64,000 bases of DNA from Cordylochernes scorpioides (lineage: Eukaryota; Arthropoda; Arachnida; Pseudoscorpiones; Chernetidae): positions 40,532,406-40,596,405 of the forward strand of contig CP092877.1 in NCBI GenBank assembly GCA_030710605.1, given 5' to 3'. Below, piece after piece: positions 7,212 to 56,304 of the stretch. Positions within the stretch are counted from its first letter, which is position 1; each line of letters starts with the position of its first letter. The notes below the pieces were generated by a model, which saw nothing but the letters and a program-made list of their open reading frames with translations, was not told the DNA's origin and did not search any database. Position numbers and translations under genes: made by a program.

Positions 7212-7267
7212 ATAATGCTTGCAGAATTGAAGCCTACAAAATTGGCTATAATGCCATCAGTCAAGGG
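7212..7267 (+). CDS. gene A exon 2
   Basis: 56 nt between CTGTGCAG and GTAAGT. With a G from exon 1 it reads [19 protein letters not shown]. The gene B counterpart is also 56 nt and reads DNPCRTAAYKVAYESAPKE; 8 of 19 residues agree, including Cys, Arg and both Tyr. Confidence 0.78.
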
Positions 7268-10200
7268 GTAAGTCCTTTTTTCCATGTCATATATATCCAT
7301 CGTCTCCTTAGATTTCTAGGTCTTCTCTAAACCCGCTCCTAATGCTATTCAGACAATCACTGTGATATTGGTAAAACAATATAAAAACTCTAGGTTGACC
7401 ATTCAGTAGAGGCATAAGCTTAAGAGAAAGATGGGTTTATATATTTCAATGTTGTCCAATGAAAAGATGTCTACGTTCATCTCTCTATCACAGCAGTCAC
7501 AATGTTCTCTAATATAGTTCAATGTTGTCGTGTCCAATGAAGAGATTCCGTGCATCTCGATTACAGCATTCGCAATGTTCTCTAATATAGTTCAATGTTG
7601 TCGTGTACAATGAAGAGATGTCTCCGTGCATCTCGATTACAGCATTCGCAATGTTCTCTAATATAGTTCAATAAACAGAAGGTAATAAGACCAAATTCAA
7701 ATAAATAAATAGTGTGTGACGTTTCGGTAATAGCGTTGTTACCATCTTCAGACAAAAGTACTGAATGAGAAATTTAACCACAGCATGTTTTAAATAGTTC
7801 CTGTTATCAAGTGTGTAAACAAGATAACAGATAAGAAGAAGATATTTTTCTGATAAACAGATGAGATAAACACATGTTGAATATTATTCTTAGAATTAAA
7901 GGTTTTTTCACATATAATTAAAAGCATATCTATAAATATAATTTATATTTCCTCTTTCTTCCATTCTGTTAACTGTAGCACATTTCTTTTGAATAAAAAA
8001 TGCTTCTCTCTCTCTTTATATAAAAATTGTCTCTCAAAATAATTTTTCTCATAATCTAGTATCTTTGTTTATTTTAGGCTAAAATTATTATGTCCTGTGA
8101 TTTTTCTATGTTCTACAAGTGCAGAATTCTCAATTTTATCCCATATCAGAGCATATTCATGGTTTTTCATTCTTTCTTTTAAAGTTCTGGATGTTTGTCC
8201 TACATAACATTGGTCACATTTTTCACATTTCACTTAATAAATTAAACCGCTCTATTTGGTATGTGAGTGTTCTTATGGTTGTTGATATATTGAGAGATAG
8301 GGTTACATGGTTTACATGCAATGTTTATTTTTTCATACTTTTTGAATACATTAGTAAAATTTCTCTCTTGCAAACTTTTGGTTTATAAATGGCAATGTGA
8401 TAAATTTGGCTTCTTTGTTTTTGCACTTTAGATTTTGAATTAAAGTATTATTATCATATTTTTGGTTCATGTCTTCTATTATTCTATTTATCAATTTGAT
8501 GAGAAAATCTTCAATGATTAGTTCTTTTTTGATGTTGTTAATCTCTATATTTCTTTTAGTTGTATCATTAATGAGTGTAAAAGCTCTATATATAAGAGCT
8601 TTTACTAATCCTACTTTTTGGCTGAAATGGTGCTGTGAGCTAAAGTTCCAATAAGTTCCTGTATGTGTTGGTTTTTTTTGTATATAGAGGTTGTAATATT
8701 GTTATTACTGTATGATAAGTTCATGTCCAGGAAATTTATTGATTTGTTATCTACTTCCATAGAGTAATTGATATCAGGCAATAGATTGTTGAAAGTATCC
8801 AAAATTTTTTGTTCACTTCCCTGATTAATAAATAAAATGGAGTCATCCACATATCTTTCAAAATAATAAACATCATTTTTAAGTGAATTTAGAGCTTTTA
8901 TTTCTAATTGGCCTATATTAATACAAGCTGTGTTTGGTGATATAGAACTACCCATTGTTGCACCTTTCATTTGGAGATATATTTGGTCTTCATAAATAGA
9001 GTATGTTGTTTTCAAACAAAATTATATTCCAATTAAAAATTCAGATTTTGGCAAATTATTTATTTTTGATTCTATAATCACCTGGTTTAATTCATCCATA
9101 ATAGTGGGTATAGGGATTGAATAAACATGGATTCAACTGTGCAGAGTATTAGGCTCATAGATTGTTGAGCTCTGGAAACCAAAAGGAATAATACTCTGCT
9201 AGTGATATCTTTTGACTTGTATATGATATAATAGGAAATAAACTAATGCTTAGTTAACCTTGCCTCGTCTTGGATAACAACACATGGTGGCAGCGGTAAA
9301 CTGAATTCATAAAGAAGGTCGTTGTTCGAAGAAAATTTGAAATTCGACATCAAGCAAGCTTTGAAGCGGTGAACTGAATTCATAAAGAAGGTCGTTGTTC
9401 GAAGAAAATTTGAAATTCGACATCAAGCAAGCTTAGAAGCGGTAAACTGAATTCATAAAGAAGGTCGTTGTTCGAAGAAAATTTGAAATTCGACATCAAG
9501 CAAGCTTAGAAGCGGTAAACTGAATTCATAAAGAAAGTCGTTGTTCGAAGAAAATTTGAAACTTGACATCAAGCAAACTTTTTGGTAAGTTATATTATAT
9601 TATAAGTAAATCTTTATAATGTCCCAAAATTATAATTGTTTAGCCCCAGAACCTTTTAATTTTTCAAATCCAGGTGATTGGCCAAAATGGATTAGGAGAT
9701 TTGAACGTTTTAGGCAGGCAAGCGGGTTAATTAATAACCCAGAAAATGAGCAAGTTAATATGCTCGTGTACTGCATGGGTGATAATGCAGATGACATTTT
9801 GTTGTCATGTAAAATAGCAAGAAACCAACTAGAAAATTATGGTAAAGTTATTGAATGCTTTGAAAGTCACTTTATTCCAAGACGTAATATAATTTATGAA
9901 AGGGCAAGATTTAATCAAAGATGTCAGCAGGAAGGGGAAAAGGTGAATGAATTTATCACAGCACTCCATAGCCTAGCTGAGCACTGCAATTTTGGGATGT
10001 TACATGATGAGTTGATTAGGGATAGGATAGTTGTTGGAGTAAGGGATAGAGCATTATCTGAAAGAATGCAACTTGATACAGACTTGACCTTAGTAAAAGC
10101 CACACTAATGGCAAAGCAATTAGAAAGTGTCAAAGAATAGCAGTCTAGCCTTTACCAACAAGATTCTGTAGATCAAATAAAGAAAATGCCTAATCATATA

Positions 10201-16200: not shown

Positions 16201-17307
16201 ACGCTTCGTAGTCTCGAAGGCGATAGCTACAACTTTACAGTTGAAAACTTTGTGTATTGCATATATAAATACTCTCTCGTCCAACATTACAATATCGTCC
16301 GTGTACAAAAGAGGATGTATAGTTCCATAGTTTGGTAGGTAGATCCTATATAGACATGTTATTCTATTGACATGGAGGAATTCGAAGAAAGAGAGTAAAT
16401 AAAAGTGTGTCGACTTCAGTCATTATAATACACTCATAGACAAAAGAAAGTTGTACCTTTAGTATGTATATCGGGATTCATTCAACTCTGAAAGATATTA
16501 CAGTGACTTTCATTGAAGATACACAAGAGAACCAAGTGTGTACAAAATTGTCCGTCTCCTTCAAAAATAATAATAATAGACGCGACCCCAGAGACATCAA
16601 AATATGAATCTTCCTTAAGTTTTGTCCATGAAGGTAATTTTTCATGTGGATCTATGGAATGTAATTTGTCGACAGACCTTGATGTCATCGTGTGTCCAGC
16701 TCCGTGACATCGTGAGCAAGTGCGGGAACGGAGAGACCGACACCTTCGACAAGATCAACACCTACCTCTGTACTGACAGATCACGGGCCACCTCGGTAGT
16801 GTTTCTTCCAGACCTTATCTCCACACAGCCTTGATATGTCCCTCATTACAGATTTGAACTTATGCTTACTTCAAGAAAGAACGCTCTAAACAATTAACAA
16901 CTGTCCACTACTGCAGAATTTTTCACGCGGCAGAAATATTTTCTTGACTATAAGGTGCCACCAATATATTTATCACGATTTGATCTTTCTAAATATATAT
17001 AAAACAGCAAAACCTGATTAGGGACATTCCTCTCATACAGAATTCTCCAGGCTGAGTAAACAGTAGTAATATGTATTTACAGAAAGTAGGGAATAACATC
17101 AATCTGGGTCTTTCTTCTGTGTTACACCTTTTGACTGTGCTGTTCTCCAGAATTTGTGAAAGCCAATATATTGGTCTTGTTTTTCACTACTTTTGGTAAT
17201 AAAACATATGGAGAAATGTTTTCATAAGCAATCTTCTGGCGAAGAATTACTTTCTCATCCTCCAAAGCAGGATAGTAAAAAACGTGTAGAGTGGAAATTC
17301 TTTAAAT

Positions 17308-17340
<33 letters not shown>

Positions 17341-20300: not shown

Positions 20301-23300
20301 CTTTAGCGCTTCGCCAAATGCTTTAATTTTTATTTGCTCCTGACGAGGACAAAAGTTTTTTGTCGAAACATCGAGATAATAAAAAGATATATACTGGCCG
20401 AAGTATCTTTAATTTCAAGAATCCTTAATTTTTGTCCATGAATGTACATTTAAGACAACTTTTATATAGTCCCCCCCCCCCCCCCCCCCCCCCCTAATTG
20501 AATTTTATTTCAAACTGGACGTAATTTAAGCTTCAAATGATGTTCCAAATTGTCTATATTGTTAAACACAAATACAAAGCATCTAATACTTTCAACAAGC
20601 ATTTGGTAAACAATAATAGAAAGGTATGTGCGTAAGATAAGATTCAATCATGGTGTTAAGCATATTTAGAGTATTAGATAACAATAAAAGAAAATATATT
20701 CATTGCTATGATATTTAGATAGCAAGTATATTCTTCTATCATCCTGTAGAGGGTTTTCAGGGCTTTCAGCCAGTATATTATATGGATTATGGGATTCCAT
20801 AATGTCGTTGTTGGACGACAAAATCCGCGGAGCTGGGGCACAGCGTGACCGCGTGGCCGGTTTACCTGGTAAAAAATATAGCGATTATAAATCAAATAAC
20901 GGAATTCTGGTCCCATCTCAAAATCTTAGATGGAGAATAGAATATATAAATATTTATAGAGTAGTCATATTATTTTTTGAATATATTATAATTTGAAGGA
21001 TTATCTTATCTAAGAGGTTTGTTTGTTTCAGTTTTCCGACTGTGTGGACAATGACGCTTTTGCATATTTGGTAAGTATAATTTGTTTCATGCAGGGTAGA
21101 ACTTTCCATTCTCTTCGTCTCAGGGTACTTTCAAATAAGATTCTGCCATGCCATGTTTCTTATTCTAAAAAAGATGATTATTCAGATGTGATCAATCATC
21201 CTATATATTTCTAAATTATTTCGCGTTGGGGAACATTCTCAAGCTTCTATCTATATCAAACGATATTATAAACTAGATGTATCTGTCTGTTCTATACATG
21301 GATTTAAAACGATGGTCAGTAACAGTAAGGCTTATTCAAGTTTTATCCTAATATATAATCATTGATGGAAAATTTGTCGGGAGGAAATAGATCTAAAAAA
21401 GCATAGGACACCTCCCCGTAAAATTAAACTTCAAAACTAGACACCATCTATTGACCGTCGCCGCAAATTAGCGGCCTCGGGTTGGTGAAAAAGCCTCAAC
21501 ACCAGCTTTGGCAAATTGAAAAGCGTCCTCCTAGAGACCATGGTTTCGGGCTAATGGACCTCGTCAGTTTAGGGCGGACTTTTTCCATGAGGAATCAGCG
21601 TCAGTTTGTCGAACAGCTCCTCAACCATAACCTCAGAGGTCTGAGAAATCTGCTTATTTTGGCCTTGATGGAACATTACGGAGTGCTGTTAGAGGGTGAA
21701 GTCTAAGGAGCTTTGTCGTTTTGAGCTGATGGTTATTACAGCCGAAGAATTTGCGTATTTTCGCTTAGGATTGTTTTATGACAAAATAGTTTCCTTTATC
21801 CGCCGATAACTCAGCCATTTCTTGGTCTCTTTGGGACTGACTCACACTAGTCGAAAGATATTTGATATTTTCGCGAAAATGGCATAGTGATCATCGCCAA
21901 AAAACGCGGAACTCGTACGCCGCGTGGTCGCTCGGGAGAATATTTTTGTATAGCTTTGAATGTTTCTGTGACACACAAATCCAAGTCCTAGAGTCTATAT
22001 AATGTATGCACGGATTTTTACCTCCAAGTAAAAAAACGTAGAGAGATTTTTAAAAAAGAATATTTTTGTAGTATAATATAGATAATGACGATGAGATGAA
22101 ATGGTGTATAATGTGAAAAACTTCTTTTTCCCATCTTTTTTTTTATCTCTTAATCCAATTATAATTTTTGTGTACCACAGATTCATAGAATTGCTTATAT
22201 TTACCAAAAAAAAGTTTATATTAGACGAGAAGTTGAATTAATAACTTGTAGATCTCCCTAAGTCGGAGGTCGGCAAACGTTTAAGTCGGAAGAGTCAAAA
22301 ATTAATATTTACAAAATTTTAAATTTTTTAAGAGCCACGATTTTTATATAATTGCCAACAATAAATAGCATGATACAATATAATATAATGGGGCTTATTA
22401 TTGTACAACGACATTTGAAAATTATCCCGCTTGAGTTTCTTTTGAACGAAAAATCGAAATTTATTTTAAGGAGAAAAAACGATTATTTCTAACCTTAGGG
22501 ATGAAGTATGAAAGGATGAATTGTGAAGAGTAATGATAAATGGAAAAATAAGGGATTCCCATCCCTGGTCACTTTATTTTTCCGTTTATCATTACTCTTC
22601 ACAATTCATACTTTCATACTTCATCCCTAAGGTTAGAAATAACCGTTGTTTCTCCTTAAAATAAATTTCAATTTTTCGTTTAAAAAAACACATGCGGGAT
22701 ATTTTTCAAATGTCGTTCTACAATAAATAATATATTCTCGCATAAATAATATTTACGTATGGAACTATATAAAGAGCTGCAGGTTCATATCCAAAGAGTC
22801 GCATGTGACTCGCGAGCCGCAGTTTGCCGACCCCTGGCTTAGGTTATTGTGTTGGTAAATTTTGTGAGATTTTTCCTCGTTCTCCTTGCAGCAGAAGATA
22901 GTAAGATCGGAGTATTAGTGTATTTTAATGTCTTCAGTTTGTTATTTGTAAATTACAAGAAGTATCAACATAACATGGAATGGGTAAGTAATGTTGTATG
23001 AGGATCCCAGATCTCAACTTGTGTTTGCTTGCAGGCCGAACATGGGGATGAACTCAAGCAGGTATTCACAGTCAAGGTAGGTGCAGATTGGAAACATTTG
23101 CTAAGTGTGTTTGAAAGAAGCAAAGATTGTTCTTCAGCACGACGATAAGGTGAAAATTTCTCGGCCTGACCCAGAGATGACATTCCAATTGGCAAACTAT
23201 TTCATTTCTTCCCTGATCTCGCATGTCACTATTAATTCGTAGGACTAGTTTCAACTTCTTTGACAAAGTAGTTTGTGTAAACAAGTCTTTACATTACACG

Positions 23301-25936: not shown

Positions 25937-26338
25937 TCAGATCGCCACTCCACCAGCCGCGTTGGTATTTGAAAATCAAAACACTTATTCAGATCGAAGG
26001 TTCAAATTTTTGCTAAATAAATTTGAAATTAAATAAAATTTGTAATTGTAAATGATGAAGTTGAAAATTAAAACATTTACTTAAATTAGATGTTAAAATT
26101 CTTGCTCAACACAGTTTAAATAAAGTTTTCTTATATCTGCCACTTTTTATTAATATTTGTAATTTTAAAGAATCAATTCGAAAATCAAAACATTTATTCA
26201 GATCGAAGGTTCAAATTTTTGCTAAATAAATTTGAAACTATTTAAAATTTGTAAAATAATAATTAATTAATTAATTAATTTTAAACTAATAATTTACTTA
26301 ACACTATCAACATTTATCAATAGTATGACATAACCTAT
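25937..26338. other. AT-rich flank with an internal duplication
   Basis: CAGATCGAAGGTTCAAATTT occurs at about 25991 and again at about 26200. An AATT microsatellite is at 26258-26281. Otherwise unassigned. Confidence 0.6.
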
Positions 26339-33519: not shown

Positions 33520-33705
33520 CCGATTCTTGCAAAAGTCCAACCCCACCAGCGAGGGCAAGTAACCAAACGAGGCTCTGGCATTTGTAAGTGCAAAGTCGAA
33601 CTGCTTTTCACATGTGTAGACATGTGGTGCGCTTACAGTAAAAGCAGTCGCTAACTACCCACCATGATTATCATGGCCTGTACCACGTGTACTAGGGATA
33701 AGCAA
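33520..33705 (-). repeat. dispersed repeat, copy 1 of 3
   Basis: Matches the reverse of 38157-38345 and the 5' part of 51050-51165 (shared: AGTGCACCACATGTCTACA-type and ATCATGGTGGGTAG). No ORF; class unknown. Confidence 0.75.
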
Positions 33706-33799
33706 AAAAAAAGATCTTTGGAAGAATCGGATCTCTTGAATGAGGTACTACTAATTTTCGAGTCACCTATCGATCACTCATTAAATAGTTCGTTGAATC

Positions 33800-36113: not shown

Positions 36114-36179
36114 AATCTCTCTCAAATGCTTTTCTCCACTGTATATATCGATCAAATCTCATCTAGCATACTTGGAAAA

Positions 36180-37658: not shown

Positions 37659-37776
37659 ATGTCGTCAGCTATCATTTCAATTTTCGCCATTTTGAGTTTA
37701 TCTTTAGTTTCTGCTACGCCTGAGCTGGACGATCAAAGACACAATGCATTCCATGAAATTCTGGAAATTTCCTGCG
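37659..37776 (+). CDS. gene B exon 1 (signal peptide)
   Basis: 118 nt from ATG to TGCG|GTAAGT. Encodes 39 residues plus one base, ending EILEISC. The ATG context TTTCAAAATG is acceptable. It is the only first exon found for this family in the window. Confidence 0.86.
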
Positions 37777-43700: not shown

Positions 43701-44716
43701 TATGCAGCAAATAGGTATAAATTTAATGAAAGGCACAATCTTGCTAATCATTTGCTTCATATAAAATCACATTGATCTCAAATTTATTATTATTGTACCC
43801 CACCGCTTTTATTTCTAAGTCTATTATTTTATTTGTTAAATGGTACCTTCAGAAAAAAAATCAATACTTCAGAAATATTTATTTTGTTATTTTTAGTGCA
43901 TTTTAAATAAAGCTTTTTTTAAAAGTGTTTTTATAATTAATTATTCACGCTATTTTTAGTCGTATATATGCCAGTCCAAAAAAAAAGCCTTATCACTGAG
44001 ACGACGTTGGCCTTAAATAACTGCAAGCCTGCTCGTAGCAGATTGGTCAATTCCTCGTGGGAGGTGGGAAGTGACGCAAGCAAAATCCGTTACTAACAGA
44101 ACTGCGTCTCTTTGATTTTGGGAACCCTAAATTTATTGAATTATATTACAAAGTTAGAGACACCCAGTGGATTATTGTTAGAGGATAATTGATACATATA
44201 AAATTTGAATTATAATTAAACAACTGATTAAATAGTTAAAAGTAACAACATACTAATTGAAAAAGGGGAACTATTTAAAAAGGTGTCGTGATATGTATGG
44301 TGGTATATTGTTACACACACACCTGTATACACCTATCCCCCGATTTACACGGTATATACGTTCCTGAGAAAAACGTGTAAATCGGGGATAGGTGTACACA
44401 GAAATAAAAATAAAATGCATTGACAGGTTAAAATATGTAGTCAGCACATAAGCTCGGGATTCCTCGTGAGATGTGTACACAGCGCATGTGTTTAATCACA
44501 GTAGCATTTAGTATAGTGCGATAAAAACAAAAAAAAAACTTATTTGGAAAACCGTGTAAAAGCGAAAACGTGTAAAGCAAGTACCGTGTAAATCGGGGGA
44601 TAGGTGTATATATAATGAATCAACATATATAGTCCCGACCGTCATGGGTTCTGTCACGGATGCGCGCGCATCATCATTATGATCATTATCATTATCTAAT
44701 GATAATAATAATAATA

Positions 44717-44756
<40 letters not shown>

Positions 44757-47700
44757 TATCCATCCATTATATATATAGTCACGACCGTCATGGGCCGGCC
44801 GGTTCTGTCACGGATGCGCGCGCACAGGGAGGTCACGTGCTCGCCGGCAGCCAACGGGCGCGCGCCGCCGGCATTACGTCATAGATTATAAACACAAGGT
44901 AATACGGCCAAATAAAAAAATAGTGTGTGATAAGGCACAATTTGGATTATCTACTTATATAATTGCCTTATTCTCTCTGTGTGAAGTTCACTGTGTGAAG
45001 TTCACGGATAGATTTTGGTCAGAATGGTTAAAATAAAAAAAGTGTCAAGGGATGGGAATCGAACCCACGACCTTCCGCTTACCGGGCAGATGCCATGACC
45101 ACTAGGCTACCCTGGACATATTTTTCCGTTCACATTTTTATTTTTATATTTTCAAGACACACACAGTTTGGGGCGGGACGTTTCACAAGAGAGACATCCA
45201 CGGCGCCAATTTATAATTGTAACGAATAGTATTTTAATTAAAACATTTTAAATATATATACGCACTCGGGTAAAACCCGGGCGTTGCCCGGGCCATTCGT
45301 CTAGTATAAATATATGCGTGATGATATTGGAATAAGATGACTAAATTATAACAGATAAAATTAATATATTTGTTGGCTTTTCTCATTTATTTGCTTGTAA
45401 TTCCAAGGACGTTTTAGATAGGAATCTGAATATTTGGATTTCTAATTCCTTCCATGTCTTGAACATTTATTGAAAAATTCCTTTCGCAACCTCCAGCATT
45501 TTCCGAGTAGATATAATGCAACACATAATATTAAAAAAGAAATATAGATAATGGTTCATTTCCCGCCTTCCCGACCACCCAGAAGTCTGAAAATTAGTAC
45601 ACTTGCATTGTTAATTGGACTGAGCGAGTATTGTGAGTTTCATTATTCTCTATGGTCTGGAAGCATATTAAAATTAAATCTACAAAATTGGAAAGGAAAT
45701 TTGTCCGTTCTTGGCCAACCTGACAACCCAGAAGTCTGAAAATTGGTCAGCTAGCATTGTCATCAAGTTTGAACATGTGTACCAAATTTCATATTTCTAG
45801 GTGCCCTATAAGTATATTAAAAATTGATTACAAGATTTGGCGACAGACATCCAGACAGACAGACATGGAGGCAAGTTAAATAAGAGCTTTTAAATAAAAA
45901 AGTCGACCAATCTCAATGAAAATGGTACCATTAGAAAGAGCGTAAAAAGTATACCAAGAAAGCTTACCCCAAGAAGGAGAAATCAAGGGAAAATCGTTAA
46001 AAACGAACGGTTTGCGAGATATTGGCAAAACAAAATAAATAAAATTAAATATACAAAATTTGAAAGGAAATTTGGAAATTTGAAAACCCAGAAGTCTGAA
46101 AATTGGTCAGCTAGCATTGTCATCAGGTTTGAACATGTGTACCAAATTTCATATTTCTAGGTGCCCTATAAGTATATTAAAAATTGATTACAAGATTTGG
46201 CGACAGACATCCAGACAGACAGACATGGAGGCAAGTTAAATAAATGCTTTTAAAAAGGCATATAATGGGTTTTTAGGTTTAATAAAAATATATATTTTCC
46301 ACTTTTTCGGTTGTCTGAAAGCTAACCTTTGTCAAGGCATTACAACGTAATATCTTTAAATATATAAAAGCATAGGGCGCCTCTCCCGTCAAAATAAACG
46401 TCAAACTAGATGCCATCTATTGACCTGTTTCCCTGTGCTTTTATAGATCAATTCCCTCCATGCAAAATTTCCACACACACACACACATATTTATAATAAA
46501 AAGGGCACATCCTGTCCGCTCATTTGAGCATTTTAGATAGCAGAGCGCCATCTAGTGGAACAAAAATAAACTAAACGTTTTTTCACATATATATGCGTGC
46601 ATTGTGTGGGTATATATGTGAACATTAAATCATTTTAAAGAAAAGGTTTCCAATGCGGGATTCGAACCCGGGTTAAGTTTGTCGGCAAGAGAGGAAGAAG
46701 AAGAGAGAGAAAAGGTAGGTGGGGTTCCTCCATTATACCACCAAACCTATATGTAATATAGTAGACCAGTACATTCCTGAATTATTTAAACATTGTGGTG
46801 TGCAGATAATCCCTGCAGAACAGCGGCTTACAAAGTTGCATATGAATCCGCCCCCAAAGAGGTATATGCAAATTTTTTGCCAGCTGATTCAAATTTGCCT
46901 CCATAACAACAACCAATATTGAAGAAATCATATTTTCAATATTTGGGAAAGTATAGATTATCGTTCTCGATTTAAGACCTGCCATATTCGAGATCAAACT
47001 CAATATAACATCGATATTATTAAGTTCAGAGTTCTCAAATACAATTTCTATGAGATACATGTAGGACACATGCAGGAAAAAAGTAATAGTACCTTAATGG
47101 TAATATGATATTTATATACAGGAAAAATTATAAAAAGACAAGTTAATAAATAGATTATTCTGGGCAAATTTGAGGAAAAGAAATTTATTAAAGATGGATT
47201 TACTGCGGATCCACCGAAAATGAAGGTAAAAAACAAAAGCTAATCACAATCAATTATTCGAAACTATTATAGACACGTATGATTCTTTTGAAAATAAAAC
47301 AATTTCTACTGCCCTTACTGCAATGGAAAAATTAATGACAGGGCATGGCTCATCAGTGGTGAACCCTCCCAGCGGTTTCGCCAGTTTAATCTACCATACC
47401 GCTGTTATATTGCATTTTTGGAACTTCCTTTTATAGTGATACGGATGCAAGACTCTTGGAATGGGTATTTTAGATGAACTATGAACATTAGCTTTGAGGA
47501 CAGCAGAATTACATATAATTATACATGTAATATATGCTTCGAGCAATCCTTCGTCCGCAAACATCAATTTGTGTATTTAATTGGAACAATTATATTGCCA
47601 CGTAGAAAATTAGGGAAGACAAAAACTTCAGGAGGAGACAACAATTTATTTCAGGGAAGGACAAACTATGAATTGTAAACAAAAGATAAGCCACGAGGGA

Positions 47701-50700
47701 AATTTACAGAGTCGCAAGATATAAACATAAAAATGACCACTCTGTTAATAAAAAATAATAAAATTAATAAATACTATGTTACATAAATAAAATTAATAAA
47801 TACTATGTAACAATATTGTGATGCATTAGCGCGTCATCTGTTATCAAAATTCGAAACTATTATAGCCGCGTATGATTCTTTTAAAATAAAATAATTTCTA
47901 CTGTCCTTACTGCAATGGAAACAATCAATTATAACATATCATTATTATTATAACTCATTTCCTATCAGCAATTTATTATGTTTCTCTTGTAGAAGGACTA
48001 TCATGCCCGAAAGCTTTAGAGATTTGATTTTTTTTTAAGAAACCTATACTTGGAAGACTGATGTTTTCACCTTAAAATTCGCCTTGTATTTATTTTGTTT
48101 TATATAATCTGTAAATATCTTCATGTCCAACAACTACTGTGTTTCCAGCTGCGTGATATCATCACCAAATGTTCGGAAGGCAAAGACACATTCGAGAAGT
48201 TAAAGGACGAGTTTTGTAACAACAGAGCTTCAGCTGCCAAGGTAAACAATTACATGTTTTAGCATAAATCAATAACGCGCCATCTATATATATATAATGA
48301 AAGGATTTAAAATCACGAATGTTTTTTATACAAAATACAAACTTATACTGTCCTTACTGCGATGAGAAAATATATTGGAAGGGCTTGGCTAATCAGTGGT
48401 GAACCCTCTCAGCGGTTTCGCCAATTTAATCCACCAGATCGCTTCTCAGAGCTCTAATACTGTAATACTTCTAACATGAATCATGAAAATTTCTCTTATA
48501 GAATTGTAAATAGTTATAAAACGAAGAGAATTTTTTTTTTTTGCATTTTAATAAAAAAAATTCTCTTGGTTTTATAACTATTTACTGTAATACTTCAGTG
48601 CTGCGTATATAAGCAGAATCGTCCAATACAGTATTAGAGCTCCGAGAAGCGGTCTGGTGGATTAAATTAGCGAAACCGCTGGGAGGGTTCACCATTGATG
48701 AGCCAAGCCCTCCCAATATATTTTCCATCACAGTAAGTACCGTAGAAGTTTGTATTTTGTATAAAAGAAACATTCGTGCTTTTAAATCCTTCCATTTTAT
48801 ATAATTACATGTTTTCTCAATAAATACAAGTATCTATACTTGTATGTGCTTATATAGTAAATAGATGTACAGTTAAACCTGTCTATAGCACCCCCTCTAA
48901 ATAGCGCCTCCCTCTTTATAGCGCCCGATTTTAAATACGTAGTACGATGCGATTTACATTAAAAGTGACCTGTCTATAGTACCCCCTCTCTATAGCACCC
49001 TATTTTGGTGGCTCCCAAGAGGGGGCGCTATAGACAGGTTTAACTGTATATATTATTTTATAAATAGAGGATCCATAAATAAATCTTTAATTAAAAATTC
49101 ATATATTGGATCAAAATATCGTTTATTTTACCAATATTTCAGTTGGCTGAACGCCAACTTTTATCAAGGTATTATAACATATTAATGTGTGTCAACAATA
49201 AATTATGTGGCGCTGAGTTTGTTGTTGACACACATTAATATGTTATAATACCTTGATAAAGGTTGGCGTTCAGCCAACTGAAATATTGGTGAAATAAATG
49301 ATGCTTTGATCCAATATATGTATTTTTATTCAAATATATATACTATTGCTATATAAACAACTATCATTTAAAACGTTAAAAATATTGTAACGGTCATTTG
49401 AAGTGATATTCACTCTTGTGGTTTAGCCATTCAATTAAGCCAATTAATACTTTATCTCCTAACAGAACCCAACATAAACGAAAACGTGAAATATTATAAC
49501 TATGATGATTGATATAACTACGATGCGATTTACATTAAAAGTGACCTGTCTATAGTACCCCCTCTCTATAGCACCCTATTTTGGTGGCTCCCAAGAGGGG
49601 GCGCTATAGACAGGTTTAACTGTATATATTATTTTATAAATAGAGGATCCATAAATAAATCTTTAATTAAAAATTCATATATTGGATCAAAATATCGTTT
49701 ATTTTACCAATATTTCAGTTGGCTGAACGCCAACTTTTATCAAGGTATTATAACATATTAATGTGTGTCAACAATAAATTATGTGGCGCTGAGTTTGTTG
49801 TTGACACACATTAATATGTTATAATACCTTGATAAAGGTTGGCGTTCAGCCAACTGAAATATTGGTGAAATAAATGATGCTTTGATCCAATATATGTATT
49901 TTTATTCAAATATATATACTATTGCTATATAAACAACTATCATTTAAAACGTTAAAAATATTGTAACGGTCATTTGAAGTGATATTCACTCTTGTGGTTT
50001 AGCCATTCAATTAAGCCAATTAATACTTTATCTCCTAACAGAACCCAACATAAACGAAAACGTGAAATATTATAACTATGATGATTGATTTCCTGAGAAC
50101 TACGAACTTATTTGAATAAAGAAATTAAAATCAACAAGTGCATCTAGCTATGGACTTTCTTATTTGCAAAGAATGCATATTCATCCCTGCCTTTACAATT
50201 TAACACAAATTCAATAAGCAATCCAGGGCCAGGTTTCTTTGTTTTGTATTCCTCTAGCTATCAGGCCCAACATGACCTTCAACAGGAGAACTAGAAGTAT
50301 GACTTTCAGCCACCACATTAAACACTGTGTGTATATTGTTGCGCTGGTGACCTGATGTACTGGGATAAAACATCCGAGAAGCTTTTTAACGCTTATTCAC
50401 AAACTAATGGTTTTAGAAAGAACACCTTCTGACTAAAAATTATTGTCTTAAATAATCTTCAAGAACAAAAAGTATGCAAATTCAACAATAGGAAAGTATG
50501 GGAAATAATTATACAAAACTAAATTATGTGAAAATAAATATACATGAAAATTAATAAGAATAAATAAGTTGTGAAAAGTTACCGTTAAGTCCACGAGAAA
50601 AGATGTATTATTATTATTTATTTAAGTAACCCAGGTTCCTGGAGCGTACAGAAGTCGCCAACTACCCGGGATGTCCTTCTGACCTAAGTCTTCTTGGATT

Positions 50701-53700
50701 TATATACAATGCCAGTGGAAGTCCAATTAATGAGGTGTCGCCAGGCAGATTTCTTTCTTGGGAGATTTTCTAGGGATGCTGGACATATGTTGGTGATACC
50801 TAGGAGAGTGGCTGTCTGGAATCTTTGGTATTGGAAGGTTGGGCAAGTGAAGAGGAGGTGGTCTACGGTTTGGTCTTCATCTTGGCAGTGGGGAGAAAAG
50901 ATGTAGACAAAAAAAAGTAGGTTTAGAACAGTGGCACGTGAGCAACCGCCTCCCGCCTCTCCCCTAACAATATTTAGATGAAGGTCATACTTCTAGTTCT
51001 CCTGTTGAAGGGCATGTTGGCTCGAAAGCTATATGTTTTTTTTTTTTGCTTATCCCTAGTACACGTGTTACAGGCCAAGATAATCATGGTGGGTAGAAGT
51101 AGACGACTGCTTTTACTGTAAGTGCACCACATGTCTACAGATGTGAAAAGCAGTTCGACATATAGGAATAAAAAAATAAAGAAGCCTGGCCCTAGATTAC
51201 TTGTTACTATTGTTAAATAGAATTTTATGCTGGAGAAATATCAGAATTTTGTGTTTTTCAGGTCATCGATTGTATCGACCATGAAGTCTTTGAATTCCTG
51301 GTAAGTAGAAAATATTTGTAACTCTTCGAAAAAAGCATCAACCAAAATTTCCTTTCAAAAAAAATGTCTACTGTCCTTACTTTATTGAATAATAATTGGC
51401 AGGGCTTGGTTGATCAGTGGTGAACTCTCCCAGCGGTTTCGTTAATTTAATCCACAGGACCGCGCTTTTTAGAATTCTAATACTATATTGGACAATTACC
51501 AGGTCTATTAGTATGAAACGCGAAAATTTTCAGTGAATTCAAAAGTTCACCAATTCCATACAACAAAAGATTTTTTATTCAAAGTAACTGCCCCGATTAG
51601 CTATACACTCGGACCACTTTTCAGGCAATTTTCGAATTACTTGTCTGAAAATTTCTATTCCTTTTGAGTCGAACCAGTCAACAAGTCATTTTCGGAGTAT
51701 GTCTGAGTTCGAAAATTCCTGGTTTTTTAGGGCGTGTCCTAAAGATGTGAAAAGGTAGTAGTTCGACGGCGCTAAGTCTGGTGAGTACGGCGGGTGGGGT
51801 TAGAGTTCCCAGCCCAAGTCTTTTATGGTGTTTTTGACCACCGTAGCGTTGTGGGCTGGAGCGTTGTCATGCTGCAGTATCAGGTTGTTTGTTTTTCACG
51901 CCATTCCGGTCTTTTTTCATTCAACGCCTCTCTCAAACTGTGCATTTGTTGTTCGTAGCGACTAGTATTGACCATTTTGCCAGGTTTCAGGAGCTCGAAA
52001 TATACTACGCCGGTCTGGTCCCACCATATGCAAAGCATTGCCTTTTTTTCGAAGCGATTAGGCCTAGGCGTCTGTTTTGGAAATTGGCCGGGCAGGCCCC
52101 ACGACTTTTGGCGCGTAGGATTGCTGAAGTGGATCCATTTCTCATCAGAAGTTACGATTCGGTGCAAAAATGACTTCTTTTCATGCCTGGCGAGCAGCCC
52201 TTCGCAGGTTACCAGACGCCGTTATTGCTGCCTTTCGCTCAACTCGTGGTGGACCCATCTGGAAAGCTTTTGGGTCATTCCGAGGCTGTTTAAACGTAGA
52301 GAAGCAGCACCTTGAGACACCTGGAGCTGTTTTGCGAGTTTCTCCTGCATTTGGGTACTGTCCTCATCCAACAAAGCTTGCAGTTCAGCGTCCTCGAACT
52401 TTTGGGGCGGTTTTCCATGTGGTTCATTATCAAGTTCAAAATCGCCACTTTGGAATTTTTAAAACTGCCTGTAACACTGCGATTTGCTCAGAGCGTGGTC
52501 GCTTTAAACTTCCTCGAACATTCGGTGGGCTTCACTGGCACTTTTCTTCCAGTTGAAGGCGAACAACAAAACTTCCCGCAAATGGGCACTTTTTGGCTCG
52601 GAAATCGCCATTTTCCACGGGCTCCAGAAATTTTTCACGATTTCAATTTTTCGAAAACTGCAGGCATGCTGATGCCAAGTGAGTCAAAGAACAAAACGCC
52701 TACAACAGCGCCACCGTCGGCTCAAATAAAAATGCACAGCGGCCTCTGGCGCCCATTTTCGCGTTTCATACTAATAGACCTGGTATGTTTATATACGATA
52801 CTGAAAGGTGGAATCTTGGTATTTAAGCAAGCTATGGACATAAGATTCTAGGACAGTAGAATTATATATACATATTTGCACCTAGCAGCTGTTTTTGTAC
52901 CTAAATTTTAGACCTTCCTGAAAAAAGCCAGTAGTTTCTAACATTACTGGTGGAAGGTTGGCTAGAAACGAATGAAAATGCAGACTACAATGGCGGAATT
53001 ACCATTCATTTATTCGATTCAGCCTTAAACTATGGAAACCTAGATTATCGAAGCCTACAAGATTTTAACAAAGATTCAAACCATTTCTAAGCAAAAACTA
53101 CCAAAAATAAAAATGTAATGAGAAATGAGAATATATAAAAGTATAGGGCGCCTCTTCCATCAAAACTAGACGCGCTCTATGCTTTTATATATCAATTTCC
53201 TCCCTGCAAAATTTCAATCTATATTTTAGACATAGATTTAGCCTAGCCACTTTGACAACTAAACACCTCTTTGACAGATTGTGAAGATTCCATTAGATCC
53301 TTTGTGAATCTCATGGAATAAAGTATATACGGCCACCCCATTTTTATAACAGCACATAAGACCATCCTTAAAAATTTAGAAGTCTTTGAAAATAAAATGA
53401 TCAGAAAAATCATGTCCCAACCCTAGTTCGTTCGGAACACAATCCTCAGGAACGATCTAAATATCGAAAACATCAATGACTACATTATTAGACAATCATT
53501 TAAATTCTACGAAAAAATCCGGAAAATTAGAAAACCCCACCTTCAAGGAAGCCACAAACTACAAATGCGGAAAAGGGAAAATAAGAAATTTGAACCTAGA
53601 AAAATTCTCCATCAATTAAGCCAGAATGACGAGAAGTGGGGAAAAAAGGAAAAATAAACCCACCTTGAATATCAAACAAGCCAGACAAAACCTTCTCAAG

Positions 53701-56304
53701 AACAATATTCCCAAGGACCTGAGAATCCGGACCCAACGACATCAATATAAATTATAATTGTAAATGAACCCCTGTACATAACCATCCCCCACAGTATATT
53801 GTAAATATGATGATCTAGGTTGCTCTTTTTGAGCGGCATCTAAAAAAGTTATTTTGGAACTTGGATGGAATAAAGTGGCCGTTCATCTTGGCCAGATGTA
53901 GTATAGCCTCTATACCCCCAAACAGCTTGTCCAACCCTTGAAAGTATTGATGAAGTCCGGGGCAAAACTTCCCATAGAGGCACTGATTAAGAGAACTCGA
54001 TTGTTGTATTGCCTTGGTCTCAGCAACCCGTTGTCTCGTCGCCTGGATTTGCTGAGGTTGGGTCCTTCTGGTCGACGAAGTCTGACATGTATTTTCTAAT
54101 CATTTAGATTTAAAAACTCTCTTTAACAAATGACATAATACATAATAATCGCGTGAGAACGCCCTTGCAACCTCAGATCAATTTTAACGCCTTGCCAAAT
54201 GCTTTTATTTTTATTTCTCCGAAGACAAAAGGTTTTATTGAAACGTTGAGAAAACTTTAACTGGCCGAAGTGTCTATTTTTTAAGTAAATATAAATGCTG
54301 TCCAGGCAAACTCTATCTTCAAGATACACTATAAAGTAATGGAATATAAAAAATCATTGACGATTCAGTTCCACTCCAGAGAAGTCAATACAGAACTTAG
54401 CAGCTAATATCGGTGTATAATACATTTGTTGTCTGTGTTGCAGAAAGGAAACGGGGAACATCTGAAGATGGTATTTACCATCAAGGTAAAGTTATAGCAT
54501 ACATTTTACCCTCCGAGTTTTATACCATTAAACCAAATGTTAGAATTTATTTTAACATATGTTTCTTCATTTATATGAGATTAAACTAGATAGCGCTCTC
54601 TGCCATCTAAAATGCTCATGTGAGAAATCAGTATATGCATTATTTGTGTTTTTAATATCAACACCTGATCTTTTTTTCTCATTTTTTTTCACGTAAGATT
54701 AAATATACAACTATAAGGATTTTTTCAATATTATTTTTCTTCAATTATTTGCCGAATATTTTTCTAATGTTATCATATTTAAAAAACAAAAGACAACAAC
54801 GCACCAACTATATAACAAATAAAACTATTGAGAACAAATGTTTCTTTTAAAATCAAATGAAGAAAACTTTCTACTGTTCTAACTTTTCATCACAGTAAGG
54901 AGAGTATGTTTGTTTTATTTGATTTTTAAAAGAAACACATTCGTGCTTTATGGCTTTATTTCTCATGTTAATCATATATGATGACATCACTAATCCAATT
55001 TATGTGGTTATAGACATCTGTTGATGACTTTGAACTAATTTTTTAGATTTTTTATCCTGTTTGTTGACGTTTCTAAGCCTAGTTTTGTAGGTACGTCCAT
55101 CTGTTGAGGGAATTGAATTTGCTTTGGCGCTTATTCTATTCTTAAACTTTTCATTTGTTGGAATCTCTTGTTTTGTGAATTTAAAATCCAATCTGGTTAT
55201 GACTTTCAACATATTGCACTGATGTTGTTTCTAACTGCTATCACTGTGTGCCAAAAGTCTAGTTTTATAGTGTAATGTCCCCATCTTTTGAGGGAATTGA
55301 ATTTTCTTTGGTACTTATTCTTATTCTATACTTTTCATTTGTTTGGAATCCCTTGTTTTGTGATTTTATACTTCCATCTGGTGATGACTCTCAACATATT
55401 GCATTAATGTGTTGTTTCTAATTGTTATCATTGTGACAAAAGTATAGTTTTATAGTGTGATGTCCTCATCTGTTATGGGGAATTGAATTTGCTTTGGCAC
55501 TTATTCTATTCTATACTTTTCATTTGTTTGGAATCCCTTGTTTTGTGATTTTATACTTCCATCTGGTGATGACTCTCAACATATTGCATTAATGTGTTGT
55601 TTCTAATTGTTATCATTGTGACAAAAGTATAGTTTTATAGTGTGATGTCCCCATCTGTTGAGGGAATTGAATTTTCTTTGGTACTTATTCTATTCTATAC
55701 TTTTCATTTGTTTGGAATCCCTTGTTTTGTGATTTTATACTTTCAGCTGGTGAGATGACTCTCAACATATTGCATTAATGTGTTGTTTCTAATTGTTATC
55801 ATTGTGGCAAAAGTATAGTTTTATAGTGTGATGTCCCCATCTGTTGATGGGAATTGAATTTGCATTGGTACTTATTCTATCTTTGTCATTTGTTGGAATC
55901 CCTTGTTTTGTGATTTCATACTTCCATCTGGTAATGATCCCAAAATATTGCATTAATGTGTTGTTTCTAATTGTTATCATTGTGACAAAAGTATAGTTTT
56001 ATAGTGTGATGTCCCCATCTGTTGAGGGAATTGAATTTGCTTTGGCGCTTATATTCTATTCTATACTTTTCATTTGTTGGAATCCCTTGGTTTGTAATTT
56101 CATACTTGCATCTGGTGATGACTCTCAACATATTGCATTGATGTTGTTTCTAATTGTTATTATTGTGACAAAAGTGTCTAGTTTTGTAGGGTGATGTCCC
56201 CATCTGTTTTTTTTTTATGTAATTAACATTGTCATAGTTACATATTCAATCCAAATCTTGTGTGTTGGCAGCACCATCTCGATTCGGAGTTGAGTAAATG
56301 CTGA
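37659..56304 (+). CDS. gene B: predicted 126-residue secreted six-cysteine protein, six exons
   Basis: Exons 37659-37776, 46806-46861, 48149-48241, 51262-51300, 54444-54485 and 56272-56304. All junctions are AG/GT; intron 1 is phase 1, the others phase 0. The frame stays open to TGA. Residues 1-19 form a signal peptide (hydrophobic IISIFAILSLSLVSA, probable cleavage before TPELDD), so export is predicted. The mature part is about 107 residues, charged and probably helical, with Cys at 39, 43, 66, 81, 93 and 126, which could make three disulfides. Two AATAAA motifs follow at 56338 and 56342. Introns are 9.0, 1.3, 3.0, 3.1 and 1.8 kb. Gene A, 13 kb upstream on the same strand, matches exon by exon, arguing that both are real and arose by duplication. 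The family and function are not recognised. Confidence 0.86.
37847..38124. repeat. near-perfect 278-bp foldback element
   Basis: Arms of about 137 bp meet at AATCTACCATTAAACTGG. Outer ends are ATAAAACTATTTAAGAGGCG and its complement. The shared core CTGTCCTTACTGCGATGGAA identifies a family with copies or halves at 18830, 47288, 47870, 48300, 51353 and 54860. Confidence 0.93.
38157..38345 (+). repeat. dispersed repeat, copy 2 of 3
   Basis: Inverse of 33520-33705. It starts ATCCCTAGTAGACGTGGTAC and ends near CTGCAAGAATCGG. Confidence 0.75.
38346..38639. other. unassigned intronic stretch
   Basis: No relation recognised apart from AGGGATTCGATCCCGGGTGG at 38383, a possible tRNA B-box-like remnant. 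Confidence 0.35.
38640..38832 (+). mobile_element. tRNA-derived SINE with LINE-like tail, copy 1
   Basis: The head has the B box GGATCGAATCC (38698-38708) and its upstream tRNA-like part. The tail is GTTCTTTTTGAGCGG...CCTAATAAAGTTATTTTCG, nearly identical to the 3' end of the LINE remnant at 53340-53862, suggesting it borrowed that LINE's machinery. Confidence 0.78.
39073..39324. repeat. near-perfect foldback element, arms ~120 bp
   Basis: ATTCTCACAATGAGTATTTT at the left is inverted at the right. The inner pairing runs through GCGTTATTCGCTCTTCAACGG and AATCCCACTAGAAATATTT. Not clearly related to the other foldbacks. Confidence 0.9.
39407..39895. mobile_element. inverted-repeat element with a nested hAT-type MITE
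   Basis: Outer sequence matches the 5095-5530 family (TTTCTTCCTTTTAATTATGC; ACTAGTAAAGTC). The hAT MITE at 39469-39672 splits it. Confidence 0.65.
39469..39672. mobile_element. hAT-type MITE
   Basis: Ends CAGGGGTCGGCAAACTTTTG and CAGTTTGCCGAACCCTG are inverted. Internally like the outer parts of 22264-22838. Confidence 0.85.
39912..40442 (-). mobile_element. SINE copy 2, split by a hAT-type fragment
   Basis: The tail (AAAATAACTTTACTAGGTGCCGCTCAAAAAGAGC) is at 39920 and the tRNA-like head with B-box complement GGATTCGATCC is at 40382-40440. Between them, about 39985-40330, lies sequence with the central palindrome of the 22264-22838 element. Confidence 0.72.
40621..40805. mobile_element. pogo/Tigger-like MITE (TTAAACCTGTCTATAGCG ends)
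   Basis: Inverted ends AGTTAAACCTGTCTATAGCGC and GCGCTATAGACAGGTTTAACT. Better copies at 48870-49048 are flanked by TA, the target duplication of the Tc1/mariner/pogo superfamily. Confidence 0.8.
40865..41175 (-). mobile_element. SINE copy 3 with a 123-bp insertion
   Basis: Tail at 40869-40913, head with box A complement (CCACTCGTCCA) and box B complement (GGATTCGATCC) at 41105-41172. Split by 40929-41051, flanked by ATATTTGCAAC at 40918-40928 and 41052-41062. Confidence 0.82.
41205..41255 (+). repeat. tRNA-like 3' half (SINE remnant)
   Basis: GCGGGTTTAAATCCC contains a B-box-like GGTTTAAATCC with T-arm pairing. No full tRNA fold upstream. Confidence 0.5.
41390..41880. other. GC-richer island in intron 1 of gene B
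   Basis: 41490-41870 is noticeably less AT-rich than its surroundings. The minus strand has a 102-codon open frame (41725-41417) without recognisable motifs. It could be an imported fragment or a regulatory block; nothing identifies it. Confidence 0.4.
41927..42112 (-). mobile_element. SINE copy 4, uninterrupted
   Basis: Tail CCAAAATCACTTTATTAGG at 41930, middle ATTCACATATTAAAACAAAATG, head with CGATCCCGGTTCATGACTG to CCGACTC at 42105. It gives the uninterrupted form against which copies 2 and 3 can be compared. Confidence 0.8.
42130..42310. repeat. fragment of the 5095-5530 element family
   Basis: GAATTTGTCAAAACTGATGCTG and the following CATTCTTTATCATCACC match that family. Confidence 0.55.
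42331..43044 (+). mobile_element. non-autonomous Helitron, copy 1
   Basis: Starts TCTATCTATATATAAAATTG after an A. Ends with the hairpin CCCGG-GCGAAG-CCGGG, then 8 bases, then CTAG followed by T (43041-43045), the standard Helitron 3' end. No Rep/helicase ORF. Confidence 0.85.
43045..43537 (+). mobile_element. non-autonomous Helitron, copy 2, head-to-tail with copy 1
   Basis: Starts TCTATATATATATAAAAATG exactly where copy 1 ends. The 3' end has CCCGGGCGAAGCCGG and CTAG before T (43538). The interior shares blocks with copy 1 and with 57143-57636. Confidence 0.85.
43539..43943. repeat. foldback element, arms ~145 bp, ~110-bp loop
   Basis: TAATTATAAAAAAAAAACACTTTTT at the left is inverted at 43918-43943. 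Arms also share AATAATAGACTTAGAAATAAAAGC. It begins right after the Helitron end. Confidence 0.9.
43944..44329. other. unassigned intronic stretch
   Basis: Nothing recognised. Confidence 0.4.
44330..44606. mobile_element. pogo/Tigger-like MITE (CACCTATCCCCCGATTTACAC ends)
   Basis: Inverted ends CACCTATCCCCCGATTTACAC and GTGTAAATCGGGGGATAGGTG, flanked by TA. The interior repeats the terminal motif (AACGTGTAAATCGGGGATAGG at 44372). Confidence 0.85.
44618..44890. repeat. duplicated GC-rich block around a TTA/AAT microsatellite
   Basis: ACCGTCATGGG...GTTCTGTCACGGATGCGCGCG occurs at about 44640 and again at about 44785, with AAT/TTA triplets (44700-44752) between. The second copy continues into GCGCGCGCCGCCGGCATTACG. 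Confidence 0.75.
45044..45118 (-). pseudogene. tRNA-Thr(GGT)-like gene or SINE head
   Basis: The minus strand folds nearly into a cloverleaf. A box TAGCCTAGTGG, anticodon stem TCTGC/GCGGA with loop CCGGTAA (anticodon GGT, but C instead of U33), and B box GGTTCGATTCC. The acceptor stem has one mismatch. TTTTTTT, a Pol III stop, follows within 5 bases. The lost U33 argues against a working tRNA. Confidence 0.62.
45241..45304 (+). mobile_element. Helitron 3' end
   Basis: ACTCGGGTAAAACCCGGGCG, then TTGCCCGGGCC hairpin and CTAG before T at 45300-45304. The 5' end was not located. Confidence 0.65.
45727..46245. repeat. direct duplication of a ~160-bp block
   Basis: AACCCAGAAGTCTGAAAATTGG through GACAGACAGACATGGAGGCA occurs at 45723-45876 and 46084-46236, almost identical. 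Confidence 0.88.
46300..46450. repeat. MITE-like debris
   Basis: TAAAAGCATAGGGCGCCTCTCC and ATGCCATCTATTGACC match 53129-53215 and 21390-21450. TTTTCGGTTGTCTGAAAGC at 46303 is a decayed relative of the 49080 repeat. Confidence 0.6.
46645..46685 (-). repeat. tRNA-like B-box remnant
   Basis: The minus strand reads ACCCGGGTTCGAATCCCGCA, an intact B box with a T-arm, but no tRNA body upstream. Confidence 0.5.
46806..46861 (+). CDS. gene B exon 2
   Basis: 56 nt between GTGTGCAG and GTATAT. With the G from exon 1 it encodes DNPCRTAAYKVAYESAPKE. The match to gene A exon 2 in length, phase and residues fixed this small exon. Confidence 0.82.
47288..47400. repeat. half of a 'CTGTCCTTACTGCGATG' foldback
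   Basis: ATTTCTACTGCCCTTACTGC through GTTTCGCCAGTTTAATCTACC matches the left arm of 37847-38124. A second short piece is at 47815-47930. Confidence 0.8.
47401..48148. other. intron 2 of gene B, remainder
   Basis: A direct repeat of AAAATTAATAAATACTATGT at about 47758 and 47786, and the foldback piece near 47880. Otherwise unassigned. Confidence 0.45.
48149..48241 (+). CDS. gene B exon 3
   Basis: 93 nt between GTGTTTCCAG and GTAAAC, beginning LRDIITKCSEGKDTFEKL and ending NNRASAAK; includes Cys 66 and 81. Confidence 0.88.
48300..48795. repeat. complete ~500-bp member of the 'CTGTCCTTACTGCGATG' foldback family
   Basis: Arms 48300-48470 and 48590-48795 are inverted (GAAAGGATTTAAAATCACGAA against its complement). 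A second, inner palindrome (GTAAATAGTTATAAAACGAAG and its inverse) is in the loop. Confidence 0.85.
48868..49048. mobile_element. pogo/Tigger-like MITE, second copy
   Basis: Ends CAGTTAAACCTGTCTATAGC and GCTATAGACAGGTTTAACTG between TA dinucleotides. Confidence 0.85.
48944..50095 (+). repeat. tandem duplication of a 576-bp unit
   Basis: The unit 48944-49519 is followed directly by a near-identical 49520-50095. It takes in the right part of the pogo-like MITE and the foldback at 49080-49320, so both are duplicated. No differences were noticed by eye along most of its length. Confidence 0.93.
49080..49322. repeat. foldback element with hammerhead-like relic (duplicated at 49656-49898)
   Basis: Arms around AATTCATATATTGGATCAAA and CTTTGATCCAATATATG, inner arms TTGGCGTTCAGCCAACTGAA, and central TTGTTGACACACATTAATATG inverted. 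CTTGATAAAGGTTGG...CCAACTGAAATATTGG resembles a hammerhead with a damaged core. Confidence 0.82.
50250..51035. repeat. inverted pair flanking a LINE remnant
   Basis: CCTTCAACAGGAGAACTAGAAGTATGA at 50277 is inverted as TCATACTTCTAGTTCTCCTGTTGAAG at 50984. Between them lies the LINE piece at 50606-50905. Confidence 0.75.
50600..50905 (-). pseudogene. LINE ORF2 C-terminus (R1/LOA-like)
   Basis: On the minus strand: PHCQDEDQTVDHLLFTCPTFQ, the Cys-His motif with its first Cys replaced, then RKKSAWRHLINWTSTG, followed by a 3' UTR ending in a TAA-type simple repeat at about 50610. Stronger protein signal than 32425-32775. Confidence 0.78.
51050..51165 (+). repeat. dispersed repeat, copy 3 of 3
   Basis: TTATCCCTAGTACACGTG to GAAAAGCAGTTCGACA, matching copies at 38157 and 33520 (inverted). 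Confidence 0.75.
51262..51300 (+). CDS. gene B exon 4
   Basis: 39 nt between TGTTTTTCAG and GTAAGT, encoding VIDCIDHEVFEFL with Cys 93. Confidence 0.87.
51353..51492. repeat. fragment of the 'CTGTCCTTACTGCGATG' foldback, cut by mariner
   Basis: TGTCTACTGTCCTTACTTTATTG, GGGCTTGGTTGATCAGTGG and GCGGTTTCGTTAATTTAATCC. It continues to AATACTATATTGGACAATTA, where the mariner at 51499 inserts. Confidence 0.75.
51499..52783 (-). mobile_element. complete mariner element (1285 bp), inactive
   Basis: Terminal inverted repeats of about 30 bp (CCAGGTCTATTAGTATGAAA) flanked by TA at 51497-51498 and 52784-52785. Length fits a full mariner of about 1.3 kb. The transposase frame has several stops and shifts. 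Confidence 0.94.
51560..52611 (-). pseudogene. mariner transposase
   Basis: Start codon at 52611 (MAISEPKSAHLREVLLFAFN). The helix-turn-helix N-terminal domain follows, with FNWKKSASEAHRMFEEV and later KLAKQLQVSQGAAS. The DDE domain has TSDEKWIHF (first Asp), HDNAPAH (second Asp, in a shifted frame) and PHPPYSPDLAPSNYYLF (third Asp, the DD34D type). In-frame stops interrupt it at least three times before the first Asp. The enzyme cuts and pastes DNA at the terminal repeats; this copy cannot encode it. Confidence 0.9.
52784..53339. other. intron 4 of gene B, MITE-like debris
   Basis: 53129-53215 (AAAAGTATAGGGCGCCTCTTCC...TATGCTTTTATATATCAAT) is a short inverted-end MITE related to 46370. The rest is unassigned. 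Confidence 0.5.
53340..53865 (+). pseudogene. Jockey-like LINE 3' end
   Basis: Reads KNLEVFENKMIRKIMSQP, a stop, then FVRNTILRNDLNIENINDYI and KFYEKIRKIRKPHLQGSH, the C-terminal region of Jockey-type ORF2. The 3' UTR ends GGTTGCTCTTTTTGAGCGG...TTATTTTGGAAC, the tail that the SINEs here share. Confidence 0.75.
54182..54285 (+). repeat. decayed relative of the 20286 ribozyme insertion
   Basis: GCCTTGCCAAATGCTTTTATT, CCGAAGACAAAAGGTTTTATTGAAACGTTGAG and CTGGCCGAAGTGTC parallel 20300-20400. The hammerhead core is damaged (CTCCGAAGA for CTGACGA). Confidence 0.65.
54444..54485 (+). CDS. gene B exon 5
   Basis: 42 nt between TGTGTTGCAG and GTAAAG, encoding KGNGEHLKMVFTIK. Confidence 0.86.
54830..54965. 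repeat. fragment of a foldback family
   Basis: AAATGTTTCTTTTAAAATCAAATG...TTTCTACTG against CACAGTAAGGAGAGTATG...TTTTAAAAGAAACACATTC, inverted halves around TTTTCATC. Confidence 0.7.
55081..56212. repeat. ~182-bp satellite, six units plus a partial
   Basis: AGTTTT(A/G)TAG recurs at 55081, 55261, 55445, 55631, 55817, 55995 and 56180, spacing 178-186 bp. Each unit has GATGTCCCCATCTGTTGAGG, GGAATCCCTTGTTTTGTGAT and CAACATATTGCATTAATG. It ends 60 bp before the last exon of gene B. Confidence 0.93.
56272..56304 (+). CDS. gene B exon 6 (terminal)
   Basis: 33 nt after TGTGTTGGCAG, encoding HHLDSELSKC and TGA. AATAAA at 56338 and 56342. Confidence 0.87.
   Translation, partial: HHLDSELSKC

Follow-up and report, generated by a model that had tools for sequence, protein, structure and literature searches.

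A clustered family of mini-exon genes encoding probably secreted six-cysteine proteins in a pseudoscorpion genome

Do two chains of very short exons, strung along the genome of the pseudoscorpion Cordylochernes scorpioides, represent functional genes, and to what family would their products belong? The stretch of DNA analysed (hereafter the window; C15:40532406-40596405, 64,000 nt, of a genome of 2.62 Gb in 24 contigs) holds all of gene B and all but the first exon of gene A, each gene consisting of six coding pieces over roughly 19,000 to 28,000 bases. The question reaches beyond this locus, since a small secreted protein family can hide when exons of 33-121 nt are spread over the ~12-28 kb per gene found here (coding spans of G1, B, C and A); standard annotation may, if this is true, overlook genes made of mini-exons in long, transposon-bearing introns. 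Most likely, A and B belong to a new family of a familiar kind, that of small secreted Cys-rich proteins. Tentatively, and with rather less than even confidence, we regard them as functional members of a clustered arthropod family of secreted, acidic six-Cys proteins, for which a role as carriers is proposed.

Matching exon chains in genes A and B

An earlier note on this DNA had described A and B as matching exon by exon, and that description stands (Table 1). All five exon pairs (56/56, 96/93, 39/39, 42/42 and 33/33 nt) lie at the places it implied, with identical phases and AG/GT at every internal border; the conserved Cys positions, the LRDI start and the C-terminal KC agree exon by exon; and for the approximately 88 and 126 codons claimed we read 87 residues of A within the window and 126 of B. 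The same amino acid occupies 38 of the 86 aligned codons.

Table 1. Coding exons of genes A and B and further family members. Plain numbers are window positions; those with a contig name are contig positions.
Feature	Position	Strand	Description
Gene A exon 1	C15:40528488-40528608	+	121 nt; signal-like start, conserved final Cys; outside window
Gene A exon 2	7212..7267	+	56 nt; Cys 2
Gene A exon 3	16700..16795	+	96 nt; LRDI..., Cys 3 and 4; weak donor GTAGTG
Gene A exon 4	21032..21070	+	39 nt; Cys 5
Gene A exon 5	23035..23076	+	42 nt
Gene A exon 6	24311..24343	+	33 nt with TGA; ..KC* end, Cys 6
Gene B exon 1	37659..37776	+	118 nt; ATG, predicted signal peptide, Cys 1
Gene B exon 2	46806..46861	+	56 nt; Cys 2
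Gene B exon 3	48149..48241	+	93 nt; LRDI..., Cys 3 and 4
Gene B exon 4	51262..51300	+	39 nt; Cys 5
Gene B exon 5	54444..54485	+	42 nt
Gene B exon 6	56272..56304	+	33 nt with TGA; ..KC*, Cys 6
G1	C15; exon 1 at C15:40432404-40432524		complete, six exons
C	C15		six exons; putative exon 6 without stop, 55 nt after exon 5
E	C15		exons 1-5 read
D	C8		exons 1-3 read; exon 3 of 90 nt
F	C8		exon 1 only
Intronless pair	C2:62618272-62618616, 62678451-62678795	-	115 aa, one exon; Cys framework present

A search for open stretches between AG and GT, of equal length and phase, ranked the real 56-, 39- and 42-nt pairs each among its two best rows (scores 41, 36 and 38) and gave the 96/93 pair a score of 78, the runner-up among 53 x 34 candidates reaching 11. 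A random-sequence control, which the earlier note had named as a possible refutation, fell below these values: across 200 pairs of Markov-1 sequences, a null covering the 56-, 39- and 42-nt pairs, the top-scoring AG..GT open pair matched in length and phase reached 31, 24 and 28, respectively, and nine comparisons of the real sequence with strands swapped scored 18 at most. The 33-nt pair scored 46-47 in a profile scan against a null maximum of 27.5, the profile having been built from that same pair; more generally, exon profiles made from A and B place both genes far above the null by construction, as self-matches, and detected nothing else clearly above it within the window. Several lesser matches were discarded. 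A 56-nt match (21015/51245) is exon 4 read back through its own pyrimidine tract and a 39-nt match (22783/39615) lies inside a repeat, while the profile-scan places at 59445/59586 (exon 1 profile, 36 against a null maximum of 30) and at 62246/62995 and 63193 (exon 3 profile, 23.5 and 23 against 22) fall in other ORFs or repeats.

Conservation between A and B is confined to the exons: in ten comparisons of 60-nt intron flanks, none exceeded the 95% null score of 19, which two upstream flanks equalled. Within the coding sequence, mismatches number 36, 20 and 43 at codon positions 1, 2 and 3 (87 of each), and dN and dS are 0.40 and 1.58, or 0.38 and 1.61 with exon 1 included (dN/dS ~0.24-0.26); among A, B and the paralogues G1 and C, whole-length dS was not estimable in four of six pairs. 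The distribution of mismatches over codon positions, together with this ratio, argues that selection acts on a protein. A and B are confirmed as real paralogues on the same strand.

It could be objected that the copy of gene A is a decaying pseudogene, or that the exon chain matches by chance or derives from a transposon, and two features lend themselves to that reading: exon 1 of gene A was not found inside the window upstream of exons 2-6, and the donor of exon 3 (TCG/GTAGTG) is the weakest splice border. However, exon 1 was located 3.9 kb upstream of the window, on the side where the earlier note had suggested looking, and it completes a 128-residue protein with six Cys; all six exons are intact, and a near-identical copy, A', repeats exons 1-3 with identical protein sequence. 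Furthermore, the real exon pairs exceed the null tests, and none of the 11 window exons overlaps the 20 ORFs (of 45 listed) that were scanned for transposon domains. We therefore consider decay or coincidence extremely improbable, and regard A and B as probably functional paralogues.

Judged from the window scan alone, exon 1 of gene B was plausible, not proven: no other candidate in the window, whichever the strand, combined a good donor with a hydropathy peak of 3.0 or more, and a first exon as good arises in 15 of 300 random 22.4-kb sequences. It is now supported by the paralogous first exons. The AATAAA that starts 29 nt past the stop in gene A and 34 nt past it in gene B lends mild support only, because, of the window's 1185 TGA triplets, 84 have an AATAAA no more than 42 nt away.

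The preproteins of A and B comprise 126-128 residues, with a signal-like N-terminus followed by an acidic six-Cys domain. In the 126-residue product of gene B, Cys residues stand at 39, 43, 66, 81, 93 and 126 (gaps 3-22-14-11-32). The claim of a secreted, Cys-rich product, with a signal peptide in gene B, is supported. Net charge past residue 20 is -5 to -6 in all four members for which it was calculated, unlike that of typical antimicrobial peptides, which are cationic. A residue propensity table indicates helix over much of B and little in the first half of A. Secretion, three disulphides and a mainly helical fold are suggested for both proteins, the helical reading on that table only.

The introns and intergenic space also hold other sequences. 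Between exons 2 and 3 of gene A lies a 73/76-bp tandem repeat (7453-7672, 14679-15026), weaker relatives of which form arrays elsewhere, e.g. at C15:67.235-67.243 Mb. An ORF at 10609-11526 (+), with three CCHC zinc knuckles and a charged tail, directly follows gag-like and protease-like ORFs, both of them below Pfam cut-offs. Between genes A and B, ~2.3 kb (33799-36112) is occupied by a 36-bp satellite in adjoining arrays of 13.6 and 50.8 copies, which is open on both strands and hence appears among the listed ORFs (314-315 aa).

Family members, alleles and the assembly

The earlier description of a tandem pair was right as to tandem paralogy and too small as to number, at least five distinct paralogues being present on contig C15. 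The distinct types are E, C, G1, A and B on C15, D and F on C8, and one intronless type on C2. Further copies do occur on both sides of the window, where a search had been advised, with distinct paralogues on the left only; those on the right, where the 100 kb read holds copies termed A'' and B', are probably alleles. A, B, G1 and C share the exon scheme 118/121-56-93/96-39-42-33, which E follows as far as exon 5 and D as far as exon 3; A, B and G1 are complete for the scheme, for intron phases 1,0,0,0,0 and for six Cys. Five sequences extend to Cys 6 (A, B, G1, C and the C2 protein), and none of them departs from the others at any of the six Cys; in an alignment of seven members, E and D being partial, the first four Cys columns are likewise invariant. 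Cys framework and exon scheme offer two search keys usable in other arthropods.

In searches with B, A and C, first exons were matched at 13 places on C15 (40.187 to 40.635 Mb) and at two on C8. Some of these rows have E values near or above 1 (E type; C8) and were counted only where a gene could be read out; rows with E >0.1 on C21, C3, at C2:40060797 and elsewhere were likewise left out unless read out. Such searches detect only close relatives, exon by exon, so that the family may be larger. The two intronless C2 sequences are 98% identical to one another, share 29% identity with B (E 3e-6 and 8e-6) and 26% with A, and carry two extra Cys in the mature part; they are candidates for retrocopies, for an older intronless lineage, or for alleles of one gene.

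Near-identical copies of G1, A and B (G1', A', A'' and B') flank the window's own genes. Across 381 coding bases B and B' show three differences, all silent, and encode identical proteins; the aligned blocks around the copies are 91-98% identical (~2-9% different; eight blocks of at least 300 bp and >90% identity). The contig holding the window lies between two gaps, each of exactly 100 N (C15:40497376-40497475 and 40610428-40610527). The sequence before the first gap (40492672-40497375) matches that after the second (40613760-40618456) at 96.5%, and a G1-like block begins at the first base past the first gap. Probably, the copies represent the other haplotype, retained and scaffolded alongside, a kind of assembly error treated in PMC9516828; distinct types, rather than copies, have been counted for this reason. 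A', whose exons 1-3 lead into G1-type exons, and A'', which has exons 4-6, would then be contig-broken halves of one gene A allele. Exon shuffling as the origin of A' (A-type exons 1-3 joined to G1-type exons 3-6), and recent segmental duplication as that of A'' and B', were both rejected, since the junctions coincide with the 100-N gaps and the flanking contig ends match at 96.5%. Near-identical neighbours in this assembly may be alleles. The order E (minus strand), C (plus), G1 (plus) occurs three times, once inverted, and three copies exceed two alleles.

Elsewhere in the window, an intronless 206-aa ORF at 59119-59739 (-) carries a doubled 47-aa segment (a 141-bp tandem repeat) followed by a dynein light chain domain (PF01221, E 2.9e-7), and the block holding it recurs at C15:40661501-40670388. 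Two partial copies of a Spin-doc zinc finger ORF, at 61484-61918 and 62402-62671 (+; the second below cut-off), precede a 340-aa ORF, an arrangement which we take to be probably a hAT-like transposon with internal duplication.

Comparison with known families

The family had been called unplaced in the earlier note, and it appears so here with respect to insect odorant-binding proteins (OBP), chemosensory proteins (CSP), Varroa OBP-like proteins, aphid bicycle proteins and schistosome micro-exon genes (MEG); spider candidate carrier proteins (CCP) are named in PMC8693713 and PMC8222343 in passages that give no Cys pattern. No Pfam, NCBIfam or PDB family convincingly explains the members, singly or as a profile; no carrier in Pfam or PDB gave a convincing match, and the viral and prokaryote collections contained no relative. 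The best PDB match (E = 0.16, 'Odorant-binding protein 1d') aligns residues 11-66 with 68-124, out of register. Stray family hits vary from member to member; the strongest, PF10523 BEN (E 0.00025), occurs in one of seven members and is taken as chance because the other six lack it. Searches of the genome for PBP_GOBP, 7tm_6 and Spidroin_N gave no match; this hints, weakly since their control searches were silent too, at a host that is neither insect nor spider. Chitin_bind_4, a domain that marks arthropods, had at least 150 matches in the genome. The open-licence literature, searched by gene-structure wording and Cys spacing, yielded nothing fitting.

Insect OBPs resemble the family in being secreted, with a mature part of ~110 residues, six Cys and genes in tandem arrays, and aphid OBP genes are reported to have many and long introns (PMC7380018). 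However, the motif given there, C1-X15-39-C2-X3-C3-X21-44-C4-X7-12-C5-X8-C6, is absent from B when applied as a regular expression, and Pfam searches of family members gave no match to PF01395. The OBP fold and C1-C3, C2-C5, C4-C6 pairing are further criteria of insect OBPs. The CSP pattern (C1-X6-8-C2-X16-21-C3-X2-C4) is likewise absent from B by regular expression. VdesOBP1 of Varroa (7NYJ) is a secreted six-Cys protein of a non-insect arthropod, with Cys at 21, 41, 68, 111, 132 and 141 (PMC8222343); compared by hand, its gaps of 19-26-42-20-8 differ from the 3-22-14-11-32 of B, and the PDB searches returned no such chain.

Aphid bicycle proteins offer a different likeness, in their signal peptide, small exons, domain with Cys and Tyr, and elusiveness to sequence search. 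The stretch C43..Y48/Y52..C66 of B could be likened to a C-Y-C motif. A classifier using the coefficients of PMC9168663, and trained on one aphid, gave B p values of 1.5e-8 to 1.5e-7 against a cut-off of 0.72. It rewards phase-2 and penalises phase-0 internal exons (PMC9168663), whereas three of the four internal exons of B are in phase 0. Schistosome MEGs, too, encode secreted proteins by short exons, mostly multiples of three, between long introns, and are described in PMC10526429 as having 10-20 exons of 6-81 bp, mostly 15 bp; here there are six exons of 33-121 nt, in an arthropod.

Possible functions and exon exchange

What the sequence itself carries is the gene structure, the family, the Cys framework, purifying selection between A and B, and a signal-like N-terminus. 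Among functions that could be built on these, extracellular binding or carriage fits best, owing to the signal peptide, the small Cys-rich domain, the acidic charge, purifying selection and the divergence of paralogues. The likeliest use, proposed at less than even odds, would be to carry or scavenge small ligands as a soluble protein outside the cell. Each preprotein would be secreted via its signal peptide to yield an acidic domain held by three disulphides, which would work like insect OBPs without being one, and the paralogues would diverge to suit different ligands or tissues.

Two other uses of a secreted protein of this kind must be weighed. Reproductive or haemolymph proteins (seminal, egg or haemolymph), structural or immune and without a ligand-carrier role, commonly form tandem families that are secreted and Cys-stabilised. 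Nothing in the sequence is specific for such a role, which we regard as somewhat unlikely. A lineage-specific, gland-secreted interaction protein (salivary, venom, defensive, or plant- or host-directed), with a life style like that of the aphid bicycle proteins, would also suit the small secreted products, small exons and want of a recognised homologue, all of which are known in that setting (PMC9168663 and PMC13041983). However, the bicycle classifier rejects gene B, the proteins are acidic, and purifying selection is evident in A/B and B/B', so that we judge this use unlikely.

A more specific version of the preferred carrier reading proposes a convergent class of soluble carriers, absent from the open-licence papers searched, in a non-insect arthropod without detectable insect OBPs, with mini-exons 3-5, set in long transposon-bearing introns, being skippable or exchangeable in frame; we consider this quite improbable. 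Internal exons 3-5 are all in phase 0, and their skipping or exchange would consequently preserve the reading frame. The assembly accounts for the apparent exon exchange between A' and G1'. A lesser sign of exchange remains in exon 1 of A and G1: over its first 63 nt, which encode the signal peptide, the two genes agree at 60 of 63 positions, whereas the remainder of the exon agrees at 40 of 58 and exons 2, 4, 5 and 6 at 34/56, 26/39, 22/42 and 22/33. At this stretch of exon 1 blastn joins A and G1 over 141 bp, and nowhere else in the flanks compared; either a short gene-conversion tract or constraint could account for the likeness.
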